NCBI RefSeq assembly: GCF_002159705.1
Contig: NZ_NFJD01000001.1
Coordinates: forward strand, 372,001-436,000
Direction of reading: 5' to 3'
Length of the DNA: 64,000 bases
Origin: Elusimicrobium sp. An273
GTDB lineage: Bacteria > Elusimicrobiota > Elusimicrobia > Elusimicrobiales > Elusimicrobiaceae
Shown: one piece after another, positions 35,723 through 43,816 of the stretch
Numbering within the stretch: the first letter of the stretch is position 1
Layout: each line of letters starts with the position of its first letter
Translations under genes and position numbers: made by a program
The notes under the pieces: model-generated
The model's database searches: none
Told to the model about the DNA's origin: nothing
What the model saw: only the letters and a program-made list of their open reading frames with translations

Positions 35723-35750
35723 TTGCGAACAAAACACAATTTGCTATAAT
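35723..35750 (+). promoter_or_regulatory. original tRNA-Val promoter, now at attL
   Basis: TTGCGA (35723-35728) and TATAAT (35745-35750) with 16 bases between. It now reads into a truncated tRNA copy. Confidence 0.65.
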
Positions 35751-35774: not shown

Positions 35775-35814
35775 GCCCAGTTGGCGCAGCGGTAGCGCGT
35801 TCCCTTGACATGGG
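35775..35814 (+). other. attL core: truncated tRNA-Val 5' half
   Basis: Forty bases identical to 43599-43638, covering the acceptor 5' strand, D-arm and anticodon arm up to GGG after the GAC anticodon loop. The sequence then diverges and lacks the T-arm and 3' acceptor strand, so no functional tRNA is possible here. Including GATTTA upstream, the match extends to 47 of 48 bases. Confidence 0.9.
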
Positions 35815-35847
35815 GACATTCACAATCCATTTTTAACCGCTTATTAG

Positions 35848-35878
35848 TCCTCGTTCTCCGACGAGGATTTTCCTTTTT
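35848..35878 (+). terminator. terminator after the truncated tRNA-Val
   Basis: TCCTCGT / ACGAGGA 7-bp stem followed by TTTTCCTTTTT. It would end an RNA beginning at the old tRNA-Val promoter. Confidence 0.75.
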
Positions 35879-35910
35879 ATACCTCACTGACAACCACCCT
35901 CAAAATGGTC

Positions 35911-35930
35911 AAGTGTCCAAAAAGTGTCCA
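35911..35930 (+). repeat. left arm-type repeat
   Basis: A 20-base block containing two AGTGTCCA units 11 bases apart; the identical block occurs at 43429-43448 near the right end. Confidence 0.7.
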
Positions 35931-36012
35931 TTTCTGCATAAAATCGTACGTAAAATGGACTTTTGACACGCACTCCAACCTGTTTTATGGTTGGAGCGCG
36001 TGCGGTCAATTA

Positions 36013-37032
36013 TTACGCTTTACCTTGTGGCGTATTCATACAAGCAATAACTTCTTTCAGATATTCCGGGCTTAAATGAGCATAGCGGTTGGTCATACGC
36101 GGTGTAGTATGCCCTAAAATGCCTTGTAAGTTAGACATAGACCCGTTACGTACCCGAAACGTAGTAGCAAACGTATGTCGCAGGTCATGGAACGTGAGCC
36201 CCTTTAATCCGGCTTTGGCTTTAGCACGTTTAAACGCACTTTCAAATGTACTTACCTTCATAGTAAATACTTTGCCGGATGTCTTAGGACCTATTTCTTG
36301 CAGTAACGCCTTCAAATGTTCGGACATAGGCACTATACGTTTCTGATGGGTTTTGGATTGAAGGATATAAATAACTCCTAAACCCATATCCACATTAGAC
36401 CAATCAAGGTCAAAGATTTCCCTTCTTCTCATGCCGGAATGAAGGGCAAACCGTACAATTTGTTGAGCTTGTTTGTTTTTGCAATACTGGAACAATTGTG
36501 TTAATTTATCATTACCCCAATATGCCTCACGGTTATTATCTTCCGGCTTCTTAGTTACTACTACGCACGGGTTTTTACCGTTCCACAAGTCATGCTTGAT
36601 ACCATATTCTATAACAGCTCCTAACACAGCAAAATAACGGTTACATGTACTGCTTTTGAGGCCCTTGTTTTTGATTCCACCTTTGGTTAATAATTCATTA
36701 TAGAACTGCTGTAACTTTGTACTGGTTAAATCTTTCATCTTAACATTACCAAATTTATCTTTGCAGATTTTCCACATGGACTTTGCCGAACGCCCCGGAA
36801 GTTCTTTCCCGTGAAGTTCCCAATAGGCATCTGCTAGTTGTCCATACGTTACTTTTAAGGTGCGACGTTCCGGAAAGAAAACATCATCTTCTTTTTCTTT
36901 CATTAGGCGTGTAGCTACTTCCACAGCGTATTTCTTTGTGCCATGTATTTTCTTACGCCACCGCTTACCTTCACTATCACGGAAGTCAATAAGATACACT
37001 TTGCCTTTTTCAATTTCCTTCACATGCTTCAT
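36013..37032 (-). CDS. int: tyrosine recombinase / integrase
   Basis: Site-specific recombinase expected to insert and excise the element at tRNA-Val. The 339 residues have an N-terminal arm-binding domain (KVYLIDFRDSEGKRWRKK), a SAM-like core-binding domain around residues 60-150, and the catalytic domain with Arg in SGMRRREIFDLDW, the Lys region SKTHQKR, HDLRHTF, LGHTTPRMTNRYAH with the nucleophile Tyr. All catalytic residues are present, so it should be active. Its 3' end is about 200 bases from attL. An AT-rich divergent promoter region lies before it. Confidence 0.95.
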   Translation of the reverse strand: MKHVKEIEKGKVYLIDFRDSEGKRWRKKIHGTKKYAVEVATRLMKEKEDDVFFPERRTLKVTYGQLADAYWELHGKELPGRSAKSMWKICKDKFGNVKMKDLTSTKLQQFYNELLTKGGIKNKGLKSSTCNRYFAVLGAVIEYGIKHDLWNGKNPCVVVTKKPEDNNREAYWGNDKLTQLFQYCKNKQAQQIVRFALHSGMRRREIFDLDWSNVDMGLGVIYILQSKTHQKRIVPMSEHLKALLQEIGPKTSGKVFTMKVSTFESAFKRAKAKAGLKGLTFHDLRHTFATTFRVRNGSMSNLQGILGHTTPRMTNRYAHLSPEYLKEVIACMNTPQGKA

Positions 37033-37173
37033 ATCACACCCATCTACTCTTTACTTCACTTTGCTTCTCAATAATTATCAATATATACCAATATATATAA
37101 GTATAATACATAAACTATCAATAGTCAATAGCTATTTATGATTTTCAATACCCCAATGTGTTATAATATAACC
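37033..37173. promoter_or_regulatory. AT-rich divergent control region of int and the RHH gene
   Basis: About 140 bases, strongly AT-rich, with several TATA-like boxes. On the plus strand TATAAT (37162-37167) is 6 bases before the RHH start codon. An RHH repressor encoded next to it would be a natural controller of int. Confidence 0.5.
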
Positions 37174-37326
37174 ATGGAAAAACAGACCCCTAAGAAAACA
37201 AATCCAACTATTGCTTTTGTGGCTACCCCGGAAATCGTGCAAGCCCTTGAGAAACGCTCTAAAACGGAAGAACGTAGTATTTCGTGGCTCATTCGTAAGG
37301 CATTAGAAGCGTACTTGCACATTTAA
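37174..37326 (+). CDS. small ribbon-helix-helix type regulator
   Basis: 50-residue protein resembling CopG/Arc-type DNA-binding proteins: a beta strand (PTIAFVATPEIVQAL) followed by two helices (VQALEKRSKTEERS and ISWLIRKALEAYL). The ATG at 37174 is chosen because TATAAT ends 6 bases before it, giving a leaderless transcript; frames with earlier starts would place the promoter inside the gene. It lies on the strand opposite int, xis and rep, between int and xis, and probably regulates them. Confidence 0.65.
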   Translation: MEKQTPKKTNPTIAFVATPEIVQALEKRSKTEERSISWLIRKALEAYLHI

Positions 37327-37349
37327 TCACACCTGGATTGCTTTACAAC

Positions 37350-37409
37350 CTGCACAAAGGGTGTTTAGACCCTTAATTGTGAGCCAAAACAGGCCCTCTG
37401 TGCAGTTTT
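37350..37409 (+). terminator. stem-loop after the RHH gene
   Basis: CTGCACA (37350-37356) pairs with TGTGCAG (37399-37405), followed by TTTT. AAGGG and CCCT extend the stem internally. It lies between the converging RHH and xis genes. Confidence 0.55.
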
Positions 37410-37417
37410 ACTTGGCT

Positions 37418-37588
37418 TTACAGGTTATTTACCCACTCTTCTATTTCACGGACAATAAATAACAATTTACGTCCGATTTTCTTTACACACTTTGGTGGGA
37501 TAATACCCATACTTTTCCAAGTATAGACCGTTCCCGGTGTGGTTCGCAGGTACTCTGCCAATTCTTCTACAGTCATTAATTCTTCCAT
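37418..37588 (-). CDS. xis: excisionase-like helix-turn-helix protein
   Basis: 56-residue DNA-binding protein of the MerR/excisionase-like HTH_17 family: LMTVEELAEYLRTTPGTVYTW forms the HTH, and the tail IGRKLLFIVREIEEWVNN is the typical wing and helix. The start at 37588 follows GGAG at a good distance; a longer frame would overlap rep. It lies 20 bases after the rep stop, on the same strand as rep and int. Its location between rep and int suggests an excision or directionality role, though it could be only a transcription regulator. Confidence 0.78.
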   Translation of the reverse strand: MEELMTVEELAEYLRTTPGTVYTWKSMGIIPPKCVKKIGRKLLFIVREIEEWVNNL

Positions 37589-37608
37589 TTTTGCTTCTCC
37601 GTACTTAA

Positions 37609-38724
37609 TTACCCCAAAGGGGTTGAAATAAACAGCTCCACTATTGCTAGTAGTACTGGGGCAAAAAGACATGTATCTGATTCAGTTACTATCTCTTTGC
37701 GGGTTAATTCATCTAAATCCGTGTTACTTAGTGGATTTAATTCTTGTACTGCTTTCATAAACGTCTCCTTAAACACAGCCAGACAATGCACATCTTCCAA
37801 CTGTAGCTTTTCAAATCTTTGTATGAACTCTCTAGCTCTTCGCTTACCTAACTTCTTTTCTATTATCTGCCGGACATCTTCTACACCTACATATACACAA
37901 GACATCACATGCAGCATATCAGTCAGTAATGACCGTGTGTTTTCGTATTCCTTCTGGTCTAGCCACATACGAACTTTATCCAGTGCTTTGGCTTTGTCCG
38001 GTACGTGCCAGTGTTGTACGGTCTTTTCCAGATTCTTTTGCAGTACAGCTCTGACTACATTTTCCTGGGATAAGTCCTTCAAACAGCAGGATTCCACCGA
38101 CACACTACACACCTTTAATTCCCGGTCAATTTCTTTAGCAGTCTTGAGCGAACACTCCAACCGATAGAACGTACCGGGAAGATTATTGAGTATATCCTTT
38201 AATTCATCCTCATTCCGTTTATCCTGCAGTATCTCAGCCGTCTTGTTATAGAAACACACTTTGCGACGTTTTAAGGAGCCAGCAGCCATGTGCCCATCAT
38301 CTGTATAGAACGTGAACGCTTGCCTATAATGACCGCCACGATGTTGTTCTTGTAAGCAAGACCACATTGTTTGACTACTAAACGGCAAATAACACACCTT
38401 GGCATAATCAATCCGGTACACATGAGCATAAAACAGGATAGCCGGACAGGTTAACACGTGAGCTTTGTTCAGTAACGTATTTAGCCGAAGCAGGACTTGT
38501 GGTATATCACTGGGAACTATTTCATACAAGTTTTGTCCACACCATACCTTACTTGGACTGAACTCTATCTTTAACCTTTCATCCGGCAGCAGCTCTAATG
38601 CAGGGAAGTAGTCCTTCTGTTTCCGTAAATACTTCCAATTAGCTTCAATATCATCCACACATGCCTTGGAACTTAACTCAAACTCTGCATGCGGTTGCAG
38701 TAATAAACCGACGGTATTAATCAT
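37609..38724 (-). CDS. rep: replication initiator, Phage_CRI / gene II-like
   Basis: 371-residue protein that most resembles the phage/plasmid rolling-circle initiators of the gene II/X group: start MINTVGLLLQP, a HVYRIDYAKVCYLP strand (RxD), then GHMAAGSLKRRKVCFYNKTAEI and FYRLECSL (RxE), matching the family order of an RxD strand, a late YxK and an RxE strand. The start at 38724 is preferred because it begins at the family's usual N-terminus; an upstream TTG would add 17 residues. Identification is by motif only. Together with the cruciform at 39354 it suggests a replicating episome stage. Confidence 0.6.
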   Translation of the reverse strand: MINTVGLLLQPHAEFELSSKACVDDIEANWKYLRKQKDYFPALELLPDERLKIEFSPSKVWCGQNLYEIVPSDIPQVLLRLNTLLNKAHVLTCPAILFYAHVYRIDYAKVCYLPFSSQTMWSCLQEQHRGGHYRQAFTFYTDDGHMAAGSLKRRKVCFYNKTAEILQDKRNEDELKDILNNLPGTFYRLECSLKTAKEIDRELKVCSVSVESCCLKDLSQENVVRAVLQKNLEKTVQHWHVPDKAKALDKVRMWLDQKEYENTRSLLTDMLHVMSCVYVGVEDVRQIIEKKLGKRRAREFIQRFEKLQLEDVHCLAVFKETFMKAVQELNPLSNTDLDELTRKEIVTESDTCLFAPVLLAIVELFISTPLG

Positions 38725-38781
38725 AACTTGCCTACTTTTTACAGCTTTAACTGTTCTTAACTTCCCTACTATCAATCTATC

Positions 38782-38852
38782 TGTTCTATTTTTGTTGCCA
38801 ATCAGTATTTCTGTTTAGACCTTTCTATATACAACCTATGTGTTCTATTTTT
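38782..38852. repeat. pair of 12-base direct repeats before rep
   Basis: TGTTCTATTTTT occurs twice, 59 bases apart, in the upstream region of rep. They could be initiator or repressor binding sites. Confidence 0.5.
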
Positions 38853-39353
38853 AGGCAGGTTAAGCTCTGTGCCGTCGTAGAAAGCTCAATCAGCATGAAG
38901 TGATGTAAGCCTGTCAGACACTGTAAATACGCCCACTTTCGCCAACTTTGCTGCAAAAATTGATTATTGAGATACAGAAACACCTAACAAACCAGGTGTC
39001 TTATGCGTGATGACAGTATTTGGAAATTGCTAATTCCCAGGGGAATTTTGAGCATATATTACAGACCGATTGACCTGTATTGATGATGAAGCTAAAAAGA
39101 CGTGTAAAGTAACCTAGTGAACAAACTAACTACTAAGACACTTACACATTAACCCAATGAACCCGTATGATTGCTTATGGTTTTAATGAGGTAAGAAAGA
39201 CTGTGAAGATACACATTAATAACCCATACCCTATTAATCATAAATCAGTGTAAAGAGTACATAGCTACTAATGAACACATACCAACACAACAGTACGTAA
39301 CAGATGGATTCAGTATTAATAGTATGTGTAATGACTAACACTAATAATACTAT

Positions 39354-39452
39354 TGTGGCAGGAGAGGTGCGAGAGCGCGAACGGTGCGAACAAACCGTGC
39401 CGCCGATTAGGTGCGAGCGTGAGCGAACACCGTAGAGGCGGCACCTGCCACA
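39354..39452. other. cruciform / candidate replication origin
   Basis: A 99-base block closed by a perfect 9-bp stem TGTGGCAGG / CCTGCCACA. Inside are ACGGT / ACCGT (39381-39398), GCCGCC / GGCGGC (39399-39442) enclosing GGTG / CACC (39410-39431). GGTGCGA occurs three times (39366, 39383, 39410). It is GC-rich within an AT-rich region. Such hairpin clusters fit a rolling-circle double-strand or single-strand origin, but a structured RNA is also possible. Confidence 0.6.
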
Positions 39453-39533
39453 GATACAAGGCATATGTTCTACCGGATTTATCCGTGCGGAATTGTTAGA
39501 CAGCATACTTTGCATAGTTTGCTTAAAATTGCT

Positions 39534-39563
39534 TGTTTGCAAATAATCCGTATTTGTTATAAT
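39534..39563 (+). promoter_or_regulatory. promoter of the restriction-modification gene
   Basis: TTGTTT (39534-39539) and TATAAT (39558-39563) with 18 bases between; GGGAGA lies before the ATG at 39603. Confidence 0.6.
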
Positions 39564-39602
39564 AACCACAAGAGCTTTTAACGTCTGTTTGGGAGAACGT
39601 TT

Positions 39603-42600
39603 ATGCAAAAATACAAGGAACTGTTGCGTGTTCTAGGTTTTCAACCGAAAGAAAACGCCGTTGATGTGTATGCAAAAACGTACCCTAACCACCGATACGT
39701 AATAGAGGTGGACTTCCAGAAAGAACAAATCAATTACGGTCCTCTTATCAAAAGCGAATCCAAAACCACACAAAATTTCTCTCAAGCGGAAAACTGGGTC
39801 GTGTTGGAGTGTGTAGACCGTCTTTTGACCAAAGGATATGCTCCAGACCGTCTCATATTAGAAAAGACATGGCCTGCCGGACATGGTACTTCTGGTCGTC
39901 TTGATGTGTGCGTGCTTCGGGAAAAAGATGATTCAGAATACCTACTCATTGAATGTAAAACCTACGGCAAGGAATTTGATAAAGCAGTTGCCAAGATGAA
40001 TAAAGACGGTGACCAACTATTTACCTACTTCAAATTTAGCAACAAAGCTGATGTGATTATGCTTTACACCTCTGAACTGCAAGGCAAGAAGGTTGTTTAT
40101 AAAAATGAGATTGTAAAGATAGAAGATGACTACAGAGCCGGAGACGTAAAGGATTTCTACGAAAAGTGGAACAAATTGACCAAAGATAATGGTATTTTTG
40201 AATCATGGGTCAGTCCGTATTGCTTTGCAAATAAGGCATTGATAAAAAGTCAGTTAAAGCCAATCAATCAGGAAGATTCCAGTTTTATCTTCAATCGTTT
40301 TCTTGAAATTTTACGTCATAACGTTGTGTCGGACAAAGGAAACGCTTTTAATAAGATTTTCACGCTGTTTTTGTGTAAAGTATATGATGAAACTTCTAAA
40401 GAAGATGACGAGGAATTGGAATTTCAGTGGAAAGAAGGGGTAGACGACCATGTGTCCTTTCAGCTCCGTTTAACCGACCTTTACAAGAATGGTATGAAGG
40501 TTTTCCTTTCTCGTACTGTTAGTGATTTTGATGAATCTGAATTTGATAACAAATACAAACATTTATCCCAAGAAACCAAAGCCGAGCTACTGAAAGAAAT
40601 CAATACGCTCCGTTTGGAAAAGAACAACGAATTTGCCATTAAAGAAGTATACGACCATGATTCTTTTGTTGAAAATGCCAAAATTGTTAAAGAAGTGGTA
40701 GAACTGTTGCAGGGATACAAAATACGTTACAATAAACGGCAACAATACCTGTCTGACTTCTTTGAACTTCTACTCACTACAGGTCTGAAACAAGAAGCCG
40801 GCCAGTTCTTTACGCCTGTTCCCGTGGCCCAGTTTATCATTAAGAGTTTACCGCTGGAAGACATGATTGACAAAACGCTCTCATCCAAGACCGGAGACCT
40901 GCTGCCGTATATGATTGACTACGCAGCCGGAAGTGGCCACTTCATTACGGAGTACATGCACGAGGTACAGGATATTATCAACAAGAAAATCCCCAATAAG
41001 TACATAGAACGTACTAAAAAACAGTTGAACTACTGGCAAAATGCTAATTACGAGTGGGCCACTGATTATGTGTACGGAATAGAAAAGGATTACCGCCTTG
41101 TAAAAGTGGGTAAAGTAGGATGTTACTTGCACGGAGACGGCCTTGCTAATGTGATTTTAAGCGACGGGTTAGGAAACTTTGCAAATACCAAAGATTACAA
41201 AGGGAAACTACATAAAGAGCAAAACGATAAGCAGCAAGATAACCAACAATTTGATATTTTGCTGAGTAATCCCCCGTATTCTGTGGCTGCCTTCCGGCAA
41301 ACCACACGGGATTACTACACTGAAAAAGATTTTGACCTCTACCAGTACCTGACCGATAACAGCTCTGAAATTGAATGTTTATTTGTGGAGAGGATGAAGC
41401 AGCTGTTAAAAGACGGTGGGCTGGCCGGAATCATCTTACCCAGTTCTATTTTAACCAACACAGGTATTTACACCAAAACACGTGAATTGCTTTTGAAGTA
41501 CTTTGAATTTGTAGCCATTACCGAACTGGGTTCTAATACCTTTATGGCTACGGGAACAAATACCGTGGTACTGTTCTTACGCCGTCGGAATAATTACGAA
41601 TATGTGAACTTGCAAAAATCTGTAGACAAGTTTTTTAATACACATACAGACGGCAGCATTAATGGCATAGAACATCCTGTCAGTCAGTATGTTAGCCGCG
41701 TGTGGGAAGGGCTAACCTTTGATGATTATCTTACCTTGCTAGACAAAAACCCGAACGAAAAAGTACAGAAACACGACCTGTACCGGGAATACACCCAAAA
41801 ATTGACCACCAAAAAAGAACAAGAATTTTGGAGCAAGGTCCTTGCGTTGGAAAAAGAAAAGCTGTTTTACTTCGTTTTGGCTTACCCGCAAAAGCTCGTA
41901 ATTGTACGAACCGGGGAAAAAGAAGCAGAAAAACAGTTTTTAGGTTATGAGTTTTCTCATGCAAGAGGCAGGGAAGGTATTCATGCTATACAACGTGGTA
42001 AAACCATAGAAGAATGTACCCGTTTATTTGACCTACATTCTTTTGACAACCCACAAAAAGCCAGTACCTACATTTATAAAGCATTTCAAAAGGATTTAAA
42101 CGTTCCTATTGACGATACCCTCAAAGAGAATGTGTCCCGCCTTGACTTATTGGACATGATGACCTTTGACCGGGCCGACTTTGAGAAGATTATCAACACC
42201 AAGATTAAAAAAAAACACATTCCAAGTAAATATACACAAATAAAAGTTGGGAATCTTTTGTTGCCTCTTTCTAAAAAATATACAATTGTGGCTAAAAAGG
42301 ATATTCAAGAAGTTGGTAAGTATCCCGTCATAACACAAGATGAGGATTTTATTAGTGGTTATTGTGATTTGGCACATCCTGTAGACGAACTTCCTATCAT
42401 TATTTTTGGAGACCACACCTGTCGTGTTAAATATATGGAACATCCCTTTATGCGTGGGGGAGATGGCACGAAGTTACTCAAAATAAATGAAAGGATTTCT
42501 CTTCCCAAATACGTGTACTATGTTTTGCAGCATTTGATTATTCCTCAAGGATATCAAAGGCACTATACCATTTTGAAAGATTCAAAAATTCCTCTGCCGC

Positions 42601-43244
42601 CTTTGGAAATACAGCAGAAAATTGTAGATGAAATAGAAAAAATAGAACAATATGCACATGCCATGTTACAGGACATGACTCGCTTACAACAGGAAATTAA
42701 CGCTAAAGTTAGCGATATAGTTGCTCCGTTGTTGCCGTTGGATTCTGTTTGTAAGGATATCTTTGCCGGAGGAGACCTGCCAGAAGGGAATTGGAGTAAA
42801 ATCTGTACTGATGAATATACGGTTCCCATTTATTCTAATGGCATAGCGGAAAAATCCTTATACGGTTATACCAACATAAAAAAAGTAGAAGAAGATGCAT
42901 TATCAATTTCTGCTAGAGGAACCATTGGCTTTACAGCCATACGCAAGGCTCCATTTTATCCTATTGTTCGTTTAATAATTGCAATTCCTAACAAAACAAT
43001 TATTTCCCTTAAATACTTGTGGCTAGTTTCCAAGTCATTAACTATGCCCCAAGCCGGAAAAACTATTCCACAGTTGACAGTTCCTATGGTTAAAAAAATC
43101 AAACTTCCTGTTCCTTCTCTACAAGAACAACAAAAAGTTGTTGCGGAAATTGAAAAACTAGAACAGCAGATTGAAAAGGCTCAGTCAGCTATAACCCAAT
43201 CAGAACAACAAAAACAGGCTATCTTAGATAAGTACCTCAAATAA
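39603..43244 (+). CDS. single-chain restriction-modification enzyme (nuclease, methylase and two specificity domains)
   Basis: Fused restriction-modification protein of 1213 residues, best described as Type IIG-like with Type I-derived parts. The N-terminal HSDR_N-type nuclease has Asp101 in GRLDVC and Glu117/Lys119 in LIECKTYG. A helical linker leads to an N6-adenine methylase with GQFFTP (about 400), DYAAGSGHF (about 439-447) and NPPY (about 555-558). Two HsdS-like target recognition domains follow, each ending in a PLPPLEIQQKIVDEIEKIE or PVPSLQEQQKVVAEIEKLE conserved helix. So cutting, methylation and site choice are in one polypeptide. It has its own promoter and GGGAGA ribosome site. It is the cargo of the element. 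Confidence 0.92.
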   Translation: MQKYKELLRVLGFQPKENAVDVYAKTYPNHRYVIEVDFQKEQINYGPLIKSESKTTQNFSQAENWVVLECVDRLLTKGYAPDRLILEKTWPAGHGTSGRLDVCVLREKDDSEYLLIECKTYGKEFDKAVAKMNKDGDQLFTYFKFSNKADVIMLYTSELQGKKVVYKNEIVKIEDDYRAGDVKDFYEKWNKLTKDNGIFESWVSPYCFANKALIKSQLKPINQEDSSFIFNRFLEILRHNVVSDKGNAFNKIFTLFLCKVYDETSKEDDEELEFQWKEGVDDHVSFQLRLTDLYKNGMKVFLSRTVSDFDESEFDNKYKHLSQETKAELLKEINTLRLEKNNEFAIKEVYDHDSFVENAKIVKEVVELLQGYKIRYNKRQQYLSDFFELLLTTGLKQEAGQFFTPVPVAQFIIKSLPLEDMIDKTLSSKTGDLLPYMIDYAAGSGHFITEYMHEVQDIINKKIPNKYIERTKKQLNYWQNANYEWATDYVYGIEKDYRLVKVGKVGCYLHGDGLANVILSDGLGNFANTKDYKGKLHKEQNDKQQDNQQFDILLSNPPYSVAAFRQTTRDYYTEKDFDLYQYLTDNSSEIECLFVERMKQLLKDGGLAGIILPSSILTNTGIYTKTRELLLKYFEFVAITELGSNTFMATGTNTVVLFLRRRNNYEYVNLQKSVDKFFNTHTDGSINGIEHPVSQYVSRVWEGLTFDDYLTLLDKNPNEKVQKHDLYREYTQKLTTKKEQEFWSKVLALEKEKLFYFVLAYPQKLVIVRTGEKEAEKQFLGYEFSHARGREGIHAIQRGKTIEECTRLFDLHSFDNPQKASTYIYKAFQKDLNVPIDDTLKENVSRLDLLDMMTFDRADFEKIINTKIKKKHIPSKYTQIKVGNLLLPLSKKYTIVAKKDIQEVGKYPVITQDEDFISGYCDLAHPVDELPIIIFGDHTCRVKYMEHPFMRGGDGTKLLKINERISLPKYVYYVLQHLIIPQGYQRHYTILKDSKIPLPPLEIQQKIVDEIEKIEQYAHAMLQDMTRLQQEINAKVSDIVAPLLPLDSVCKDIFAGGDLPEGNWSKICTDEYTVPIYSNGIAEKSLYGYTNIKKVEEDALSISARGTIGFTAIRKAPFYPIVRLIIAIPNKTIISLKYLWLVSKSLTMPQAGKTIPQLTVPMVKKIKLPVPSLQEQQKVVAEIEKLEQQIEKAQSAITQSEQQKQAILDKYLK

Positions 43245-43288
43245 CCTATCATACCCTGTCTTACTTTATCTTTTCCAAACCATACCCT

Positions 43289-43327
43289 ATGCTGTACGCA
43301 AACGGTCGTTTTGTTTGCGTACAGCAT
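43289..43327. repeat. perfect 15-bp inverted repeat
   Basis: ATGCTGTACGCAAAC and GTTTGCGTACAGCAT around a 9-base loop, 45 bases after the restriction-modification gene. There is no T-run after it on the plus strand, so a simple intrinsic terminator is not fully supported. Confidence 0.7.
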
Positions 43328-43428
43328 AAAGCAAACTCCAATTCGGCGAAAAAGTCCTATATTTTTACAGTATGGCAAGATGTCCACAATTTTCCCGACG
43401 TAATGTGTTAAACATGGACCGCAAAGCG

Positions 43429-43448
43429 AAGTGTCCAAAAAGTGTCCA
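43429..43448 (+). repeat. right arm-type repeat
   Basis: 20 bases identical to 35911-35930, with two AGTGTCCA units. Likely integrase arm-binding site. Confidence 0.7.
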
Positions 43449-43578
43449 AAATACATCCCAAATGGTTCAATTTGGTTCAACTTCATTTAAAATAAACACC
43501 CTACAAAGTTAATGCTAAGACTCAACCCAAAAGCCTAATTTCTCAGACGTAAAACTTTTCTTATCGTGCTAGATTTGG

Positions 43579-43584
43579 TATAAT
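43579..43584 (+). promoter_or_regulatory. element-borne -10 box of tRNA-Val
   Basis: TATAAT 14 bases before the tRNA 5' end; the -35 is weak (TTCTTA-like). This sequence differs from the original chromosomal promoter left at 35723-35750. Confidence 0.6.
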
Positions 43585-43598
43585 AATTTTAGATTTAC

Positions 43599-43673
43599 GC
43601 CCAGTTGGCGCAGCGGTAGCGCGTTCCCTTGACATGGGAAAGGTCACAGGTTCAATCCCTGTACTGGGCACCA
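43599..43673 (+). tRNA. tRNA-Val (anticodon GAC), rebuilt at attR
   Basis: 75-nt tRNA with encoded CCA. Acceptor GCCCAGT / ACTGGGC, D-arm with GCGC, anticodon arm TTCCC TTGACAT GGGAA with anticodon GAC, and T-arm CACAGGTTCAATCCCTGT. The first 40 bases duplicate 35775-35814. The 3' half is chromosomal, the 5' half and promoter come from the element. Confidence 0.95.
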
Positions 43674-43681
43674 TTTAAAGT

Positions 43682-43708
43682 CCCTGCCCGCCGGGCGGGG
43701 ATTTTTTT
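43682..43708 (+). terminator. terminator after tRNA-Val
   Basis: 8-bp stem CCCTGCCC / GGGCGGGG with a GCC loop, followed by ATTTTTTT. Confidence 0.88.
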
Positions 43709-43816
43709 GCCCAAATCGCCTCCTGAGTTTCTCCGCCGCCTGTCTCTTTCGTTTAAAAAAGGTAAAATATAAGAAGTACGGACGACGTCTTCGCCGTTTC
43801 GCACCTAGGAGTCTGT

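Follow-up and report, generated by a model that had tools for sequence, protein, structure and literature searches.

Elements that target tRNA genes mostly restore the 3' end of their target, as already pointed out in a preliminary description of the locus analyzed here and borne out by the Islander survey of complete genomes up to 2014, which counts 159 islands carrying a 5' piece of the tRNA against 3760 carrying a 3' piece (159/3919; PMC4383910). According to a review, 5' restoration is seldom met in bacteria (PMC8371274). A documented case is pTN3 (IntpTN3) of the archaeon Thermococcus nautili, where attB and attP share a 41-bp stretch that covers the 5' half of the tRNA up to and including the anticodon, and the tRNA-Leu is rebuilt but cut off from its original promoter (S2 Fig legend, PMC5495485; PMC8371274). 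In tRNA-dependent lysogeny, integration into a tRNA gene likewise makes host translation rely on element DNA, but the phage brings a whole separate tRNA gene and the host tRNA is not rebuilt (PMC10865867).

The locus under study lies in a window of 64,000 nucleotides, being the whole stretch of DNA analyzed, from an Elusimicrobiaceae bacterium. It is a small integrative element (35775-43638) with ~7.8 kb between two 40-nt copies of the 5' half of tRNA-Val(GAC), and it belongs to the rare, already known 5'-restoring kind. The 5' half shared through the anticodon, the rebuilt tRNA and the separated promoter resemble pTN3. However, pTN3 carries its attP within the integrase gene, and integration splits this gene, whereas the integrase ORF in the window is intact and lies ~200 nt from the end of attL, and the leader has its own conserved -10 box; membership in the pTN3 family proper was therefore ruled out. 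With the 5'-fragment islands of Islander the element shares a tRNA 5' fragment that precedes the restored gene, a tyrosine integrase and an anticodon-centred crossover (PMC4383910). A case of tRNA-dependent lysogeny could be dismissed, since the tRNA is rebuilt and ARAGORN called no further tRNA within the element besides tRNA-Val. The 3'-restoring tRNA-Val elements of the same genus (G011, G015, G024, G051, G072) use the same attB and the same anticodon-loop crossover and carry the same kind of module of Rep-like protein, HTH protein and integrase, in G015 even with a Rep of the window family. In contrast to the window element, they carry the 3' half and keep the native promoter in place.

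Table. Coordinates of the features of the tRNA-Val(GAC) element and its borders (window positions).
Feature	Position	Strand	Evidence
Native (ancestral) promoter of tRNA-Val, TTGCGA-16-TATAAT, outside the element	35723..35750	+	Promoter scan 10/12, TG before -10; TTTGCTATAATARATARGTA..CCGATTTAA block at empty sites
attL core, displaced tRNA-Val 5' half (1-40)	35775..35814	+	40/40 identity to 43599-43638
Anticodon loop TTGACAT, likely 7-nt crossover region in attL	35805..35811	+	Overlap of 5' and 3' fragments
Element-borne predicted intrinsic terminator just inside attL, facing native tRNA promoter	35846..35879	+	Terminator scan; fold z = -3.8; conserved in G007, G019, G057
Putative integrase arm-type site, left arm, AAGTGTCCAAAAAGTGTCCA	35911..35930	+	Identical direct repeat at both element ends
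Tyrosine integrase, 339 aa, motifs GMR, HDLRH, LGH, RY intact	36013..37032	-	PF00589 3e-30
Ribbon-helix-helix (CopG-like) protein, 62 aa	37138..37326	+	PF01402
HTH_17 protein, likely excisionase/regulator (Xis-like)	37418..37672	-	PF12728 3e-11; phrog_66 excisionase 8e-9
Rep-like protein, start at conserved MINTVG	37609..38724	-	PF05144 6e-5 (Phage_CRI / G2P, weak, just over cut-off); start from relatives
Type IIG restriction-modification enzyme, 1213 aa, variable cargo	39603..43244	+	PDLC03624 1e-217; N6_Mtase + Methylase_S
Putative integrase arm-type sites, right arm	43429..43459	+	Direct repeat comparison
Element-supplied leader, extended -10 TGG-TATAAT at 43576-43584	43547..43598	+	90-100% identity over 52 nt, all four family members
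Restored tRNA-Val(GAC): element 5' half (1-40) + host 3' half	43599..43673	+	ARAGORN
Host-derived tRNA 3' half + native terminator	43639..43709	+	Virtual empty site in register with G002 here; terminator scan

Flanked by the end of dnaE (35670) and the start of a 102-aa gene (43817), the locus contains the sole tRNA-Val(GAC) call of the window. Positions 1-40 of this tRNA, spanning the anticodon (33-35) and reaching the 3' side of the anticodon stem, recur as an exact block at a spacing of 7824 nt, in the same orientation, with the 5' fragment upstream, the full tRNA downstream and the tyrosine integrase located between the two att copies. Upstream of the two copies the sequences mismatch from the first base, and after position 40 they diverge, the right copy continuing as a complete tRNA and the left one being truncated. 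An exact repeat of this length within 12 kb is far beyond chance expectation. The repeat comparison and the ARAGORN call agree with the preliminary description, which had recognized in the block at both ends the tRNA-Val 5' half through the anticodon arm, truncated on the left and running into the 3' half on the right. Using the tRNA-Val as query against the assembly (1.5 Mb, 14 contigs), we retrieved, besides the full gene and the 5' fragment, nothing but tRNA-Val(CAC) at 85% identity; thus, tRNA-Val(GAC) is single-copy, as had previously been left as a proviso. A tRNA-Val(TAC) is also present in the genome.

A TATAAT box is found upstream of both 40-nt copies, and a search of 66 genomes of the genus allowed us to determine which side is ancestral. 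The TTTGCTATAATARATARGTA..CCGATTTAA block forming the left flank in the window is located directly 5' of an intact tRNA-Val in G021, G012, G048, G070, G014, G002 and others. At the empty site of G002, one unbroken stretch runs from dnaE through the native promoter and tRNA-Val to the gene downstream, and it aligns across the junction with the window flanks once these are joined at position 40. G021 combines the left promoter of the window and an intact tRNA-Val with the right flank of G007. Within the genus genomes, the right-hand leader (..GCTAGATTTGGTATAATAATTTTAGATTTAC) was detected only beside members of the window's own element family (G007, G019, G057). Given that empty sites carry the left promoter and the right leader is limited to the element family, the element brought the 5' half together with a new leader. 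The converse, an ordinary 3'-restorer, would make the left copy with its strong promoter the share of the element and the right-hand promoter ancestral; 3' restoration is the rule (PMC4383910) and 3'-restorers sit in the same tRNA-Val of sister species, but the left promoter at empty sites and the confinement of the right leader to the element family of the window leave this reading a barely measurable chance. As the ancestral promoter, the right-hand one is ruled out by the empty sites G002 and G021. The previous proposal of an element in the tRNA-Val 5' half, supplying this half plus its own upstream -10 box, had been staked on exactly this comparison with empty-site relatives and is confirmed by both genomes: the left promoter is ancestral, the right-hand one is not.

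The 52 nt located 5' of the restored tRNA are 90-100% identical in four elements, while in the next 52 nt upstream identity is at 37-38% for G057. As identity falls beyond 52 nt, the leader is constrained, be it for promoter function, as an att arm or in both roles. Its -10 box is the putative promoter of the restored tRNA; no -35 element passing the promoter scan accompanies the right-hand TGG-TATAAT, and the new promoter may therefore have little strength, or the tRNA may be transcribed from further upstream. At the opposite end, the element terminator is located ~70 nt downstream of the displaced tRNA start and is predicted to act as such. Between the displaced native promoter and this terminator, a short RNA of ~100 nt that contains the tRNA 5' half may be made (window 35775-35880, fold z = -2.8).

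The exact repeat, the empty sites, the polarity, the intact integrase motifs, the arm-type repeats and the family members in other species together make us highly confident in the following account of integration. An attP made up of tRNA-Val 1-40 and the element's own leader upstream of it was recombined by the tyrosine integrase with the attB of the host, located at the anticodon loop of tRNA-Val(GAC). By this, the host 5' half and its promoter were moved to the left end, facing the element terminator, and the element 5' half was joined to the host 3' half, leaving the mature tRNA sequence unchanged. Transcription of the re-promoted tRNA would now start in element DNA, and precise excision would regenerate the original gene.

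It had further been suggested that this arrangement ties host viability to the element, which is not supported as stated, as site-specific excision would bring the 3' half back under its native promoter. Because precise excision restores the native promoter, the gene would be broken only by non-precise loss of the right end of the element. An addiction device, in which the element owns the promoter of an essential single-copy tRNA and its own loss is lethal, would fit the single-copy status of tRNA-Val(GAC) and the share of GTT and GTC in the long ORFs of the window (30% of valine codons). In addition, no CmoA was found over threshold, so that tRNA-Val(TAC) may read GUC and GUU poorly, this being a weak negative of an insensitive search, the control of which exceeded the cut-off in one genome only. 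We nevertheless regard such a device as improbable: precise excision reconnects native promoter and 3' half, identical 40-nt cores and an intact integrase should render the main loss route harmless, and with other valine tRNAs (TAC and CAC) present, the GAC tRNA may or may not be essential. Based on its architecture, the element would control the tRNA promoter while integrated, which is not a demonstrated addiction.

Concerning the site of strand exchange, 5' fragments of the genus end at tRNA position 37-40 and 3' fragments start at 28; they overlap in the anticodon arm only, with the 7-nt loop central in its inverted-repeat stem. On the basis of this overlap and the known anticodon-loop class (PMC8371274, PMC4383910), the crossover is expected in the anticodon arm, most likely in its 7-nt loop. 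The repeat AAGTGTCCAAAAAGTGTCCA appears ~140 nt right of the left core and ~150 nt left of the right core in four out of four family members, on the right side with at most one mismatch. It is also found at other tRNAs in four integrase relatives of the window's clade, in a fifth one with one mismatch, and is absent from the other tRNA-Val element families among the genus elements compared. These repeats are good candidates for integrase arm sites. A decayed tRNA 3' half at the left end of the element (whole-tRNA attP) was rejected for the window family, as the alignment was no better than those of shuffled sequences, 47-54% of which scored equally well. Near the att core of several element families of both polarities, a short ATTTCTTCGNCGAGAAAT-like inverted repeat (TCGTCG/CGACGA core) is located; it stands upstream of tRNA-Val in L087, L088 and L089 and, in L097-L103, to the left of the 3' fragments. 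This repeat may serve as a terminator or as a site for an accessory protein.

In terms of gene content, conjugation or relaxase Pfam domains amount to zero in the element, with the Rep-like protein being weakly classified. The latter has no match in PDB, phage records or plasmid records, and IMG/VR scans revealed no relatives of Rep or Int in viral contigs. Apart from the weak Phage_CRI match, no structural or morphogenesis genes were detected among the element ORFs by Pfam and PHROGs, ruling out a temperate phage or filamentous prophage. Between integrase and attL, the copy of the window, alone among the family, hosts a hairpin-forming insert of ~40 nt (35962-36010). Its interpretation as a dispersed repeat (35971-35996) was discarded, as it is single copy in the genome.

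The integrase of the window, the relatives of which stem from gut metagenome assemblies, shares 98% identity with that of G007, 99% with that of G019 and 89-91% with that of G057. The respective elements have the same 5'-half junction and 5' polarity with differing flanks, and RHH and Rep genes are common to all. What varies is the cargo that lies between Rep and the element's right end: the window and G007 carry a type IIG RM, G019 an N6 methylase with S subunit and DpnI-like protein, and G057 an Mrr-type endonuclease. At the same site, the left module genes of G007 are 98-100% identical to those of the window despite a dnaE identity of 87%, suggesting recent transfer between species. A fixed island that has lost its mobility might explain the hairpin insert found in the window's copy alone, but intact integrase motifs, identical 40-nt cores and the likely recent transfer reflected in the G007 module make such a dead remnant unlikely. 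The element is probably mobile at present. Beyond this family, a related integrase gene fragment adjoins tRNA-Val(CAC) as another possible target (G065:C53, L054, 2076-2147). In G006:C31 (L090, 1982-2018), the inverted repeat that stands before the restored tRNA of the other contig is also found before the 5' fragment, which suggests two 5'-restoring elements in tandem.

Extension of the comparison to all tRNA-Val(GAC) fragments of the genus revealed 5' fragments in nine genomes (G000, G006, G007, G019, G023, G054, G055, G057, G081) and 3' fragments in ten (G011, G015, G018, G024, G046, G050, G051, G066, G071, G072). In this genus, tRNA-Val(GAC) is a two-way hotspot hosting 5'- and 3'-restorers; the contrast of 9:10 versus 159:3760 in Islander is descriptive, as family members are not independent. 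In the integrase tree, the 5'-restorers G006, G054 and G081 are sister to the 3'-restorers (100/100), and the window family is nearest to the integrases of tRNA-Arg(GCG) elements in G007, G023, G049 and G079. The latter are 3'-restorers, with the full tRNA upstream and a fragment 26-75 beside the arm site. A single integrase clade of all 5'-restorers was rejected (AU test p ~2e-5, with groups named post-tree and long branches present), and restoration polarity consequently appears to have switched more than once. On G057:C20 (L139 3149-3237, L146 2634-2720), two nearly whole copies of tRNA-Ser(TGA) enclose an element with an integrase of the window's clade and the same arm-type repeat; the copy on the 5'-restoring side is intact, and the left one is decaying at its 3' end. 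This is a possible intermediate between 5'- and 3'-restoring attP.

A chimera in G015 (L099, G015:C7:296900-310900) carries the integrase and a second HTH of a 3'-restoring family, with 3' polarity at the same tRNA-Val. Its Rep (62-81%) and HTH (85%) of the window family stand beside this integrase, from which we conclude that elements of opposite polarity exchange modules at tRNA-Val. We lean slightly toward a more general reading, in which the integrase lineage does not fix the restored half and attP polarity would flip repeatedly at anticodon-loop sites. Elements at tRNA-Val(GAC) would then swap either 5' half and promoter or 3' half and terminator, as well as modules, and with the promoter inside the attR arm in the case of 5' restoration, Int/Xis binding could tune the host tRNA.

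The two-way hotspot and the apparent repeated switches of polarity are what this analysis adds to the known systems. Elements restoring the 5' end are a small minority and usually met singly, whereas here several independent 5'-restorers, 3'-restorers and empty sites are found side by side in one tRNA gene of one genus. A compact module of Int, HTH and Rep-like protein shuttles changing restriction enzymes between species, and the tRNA-Val(GAC) set makes testable how attP polarity changes and whether promoter-owning elements affect tRNA supply.
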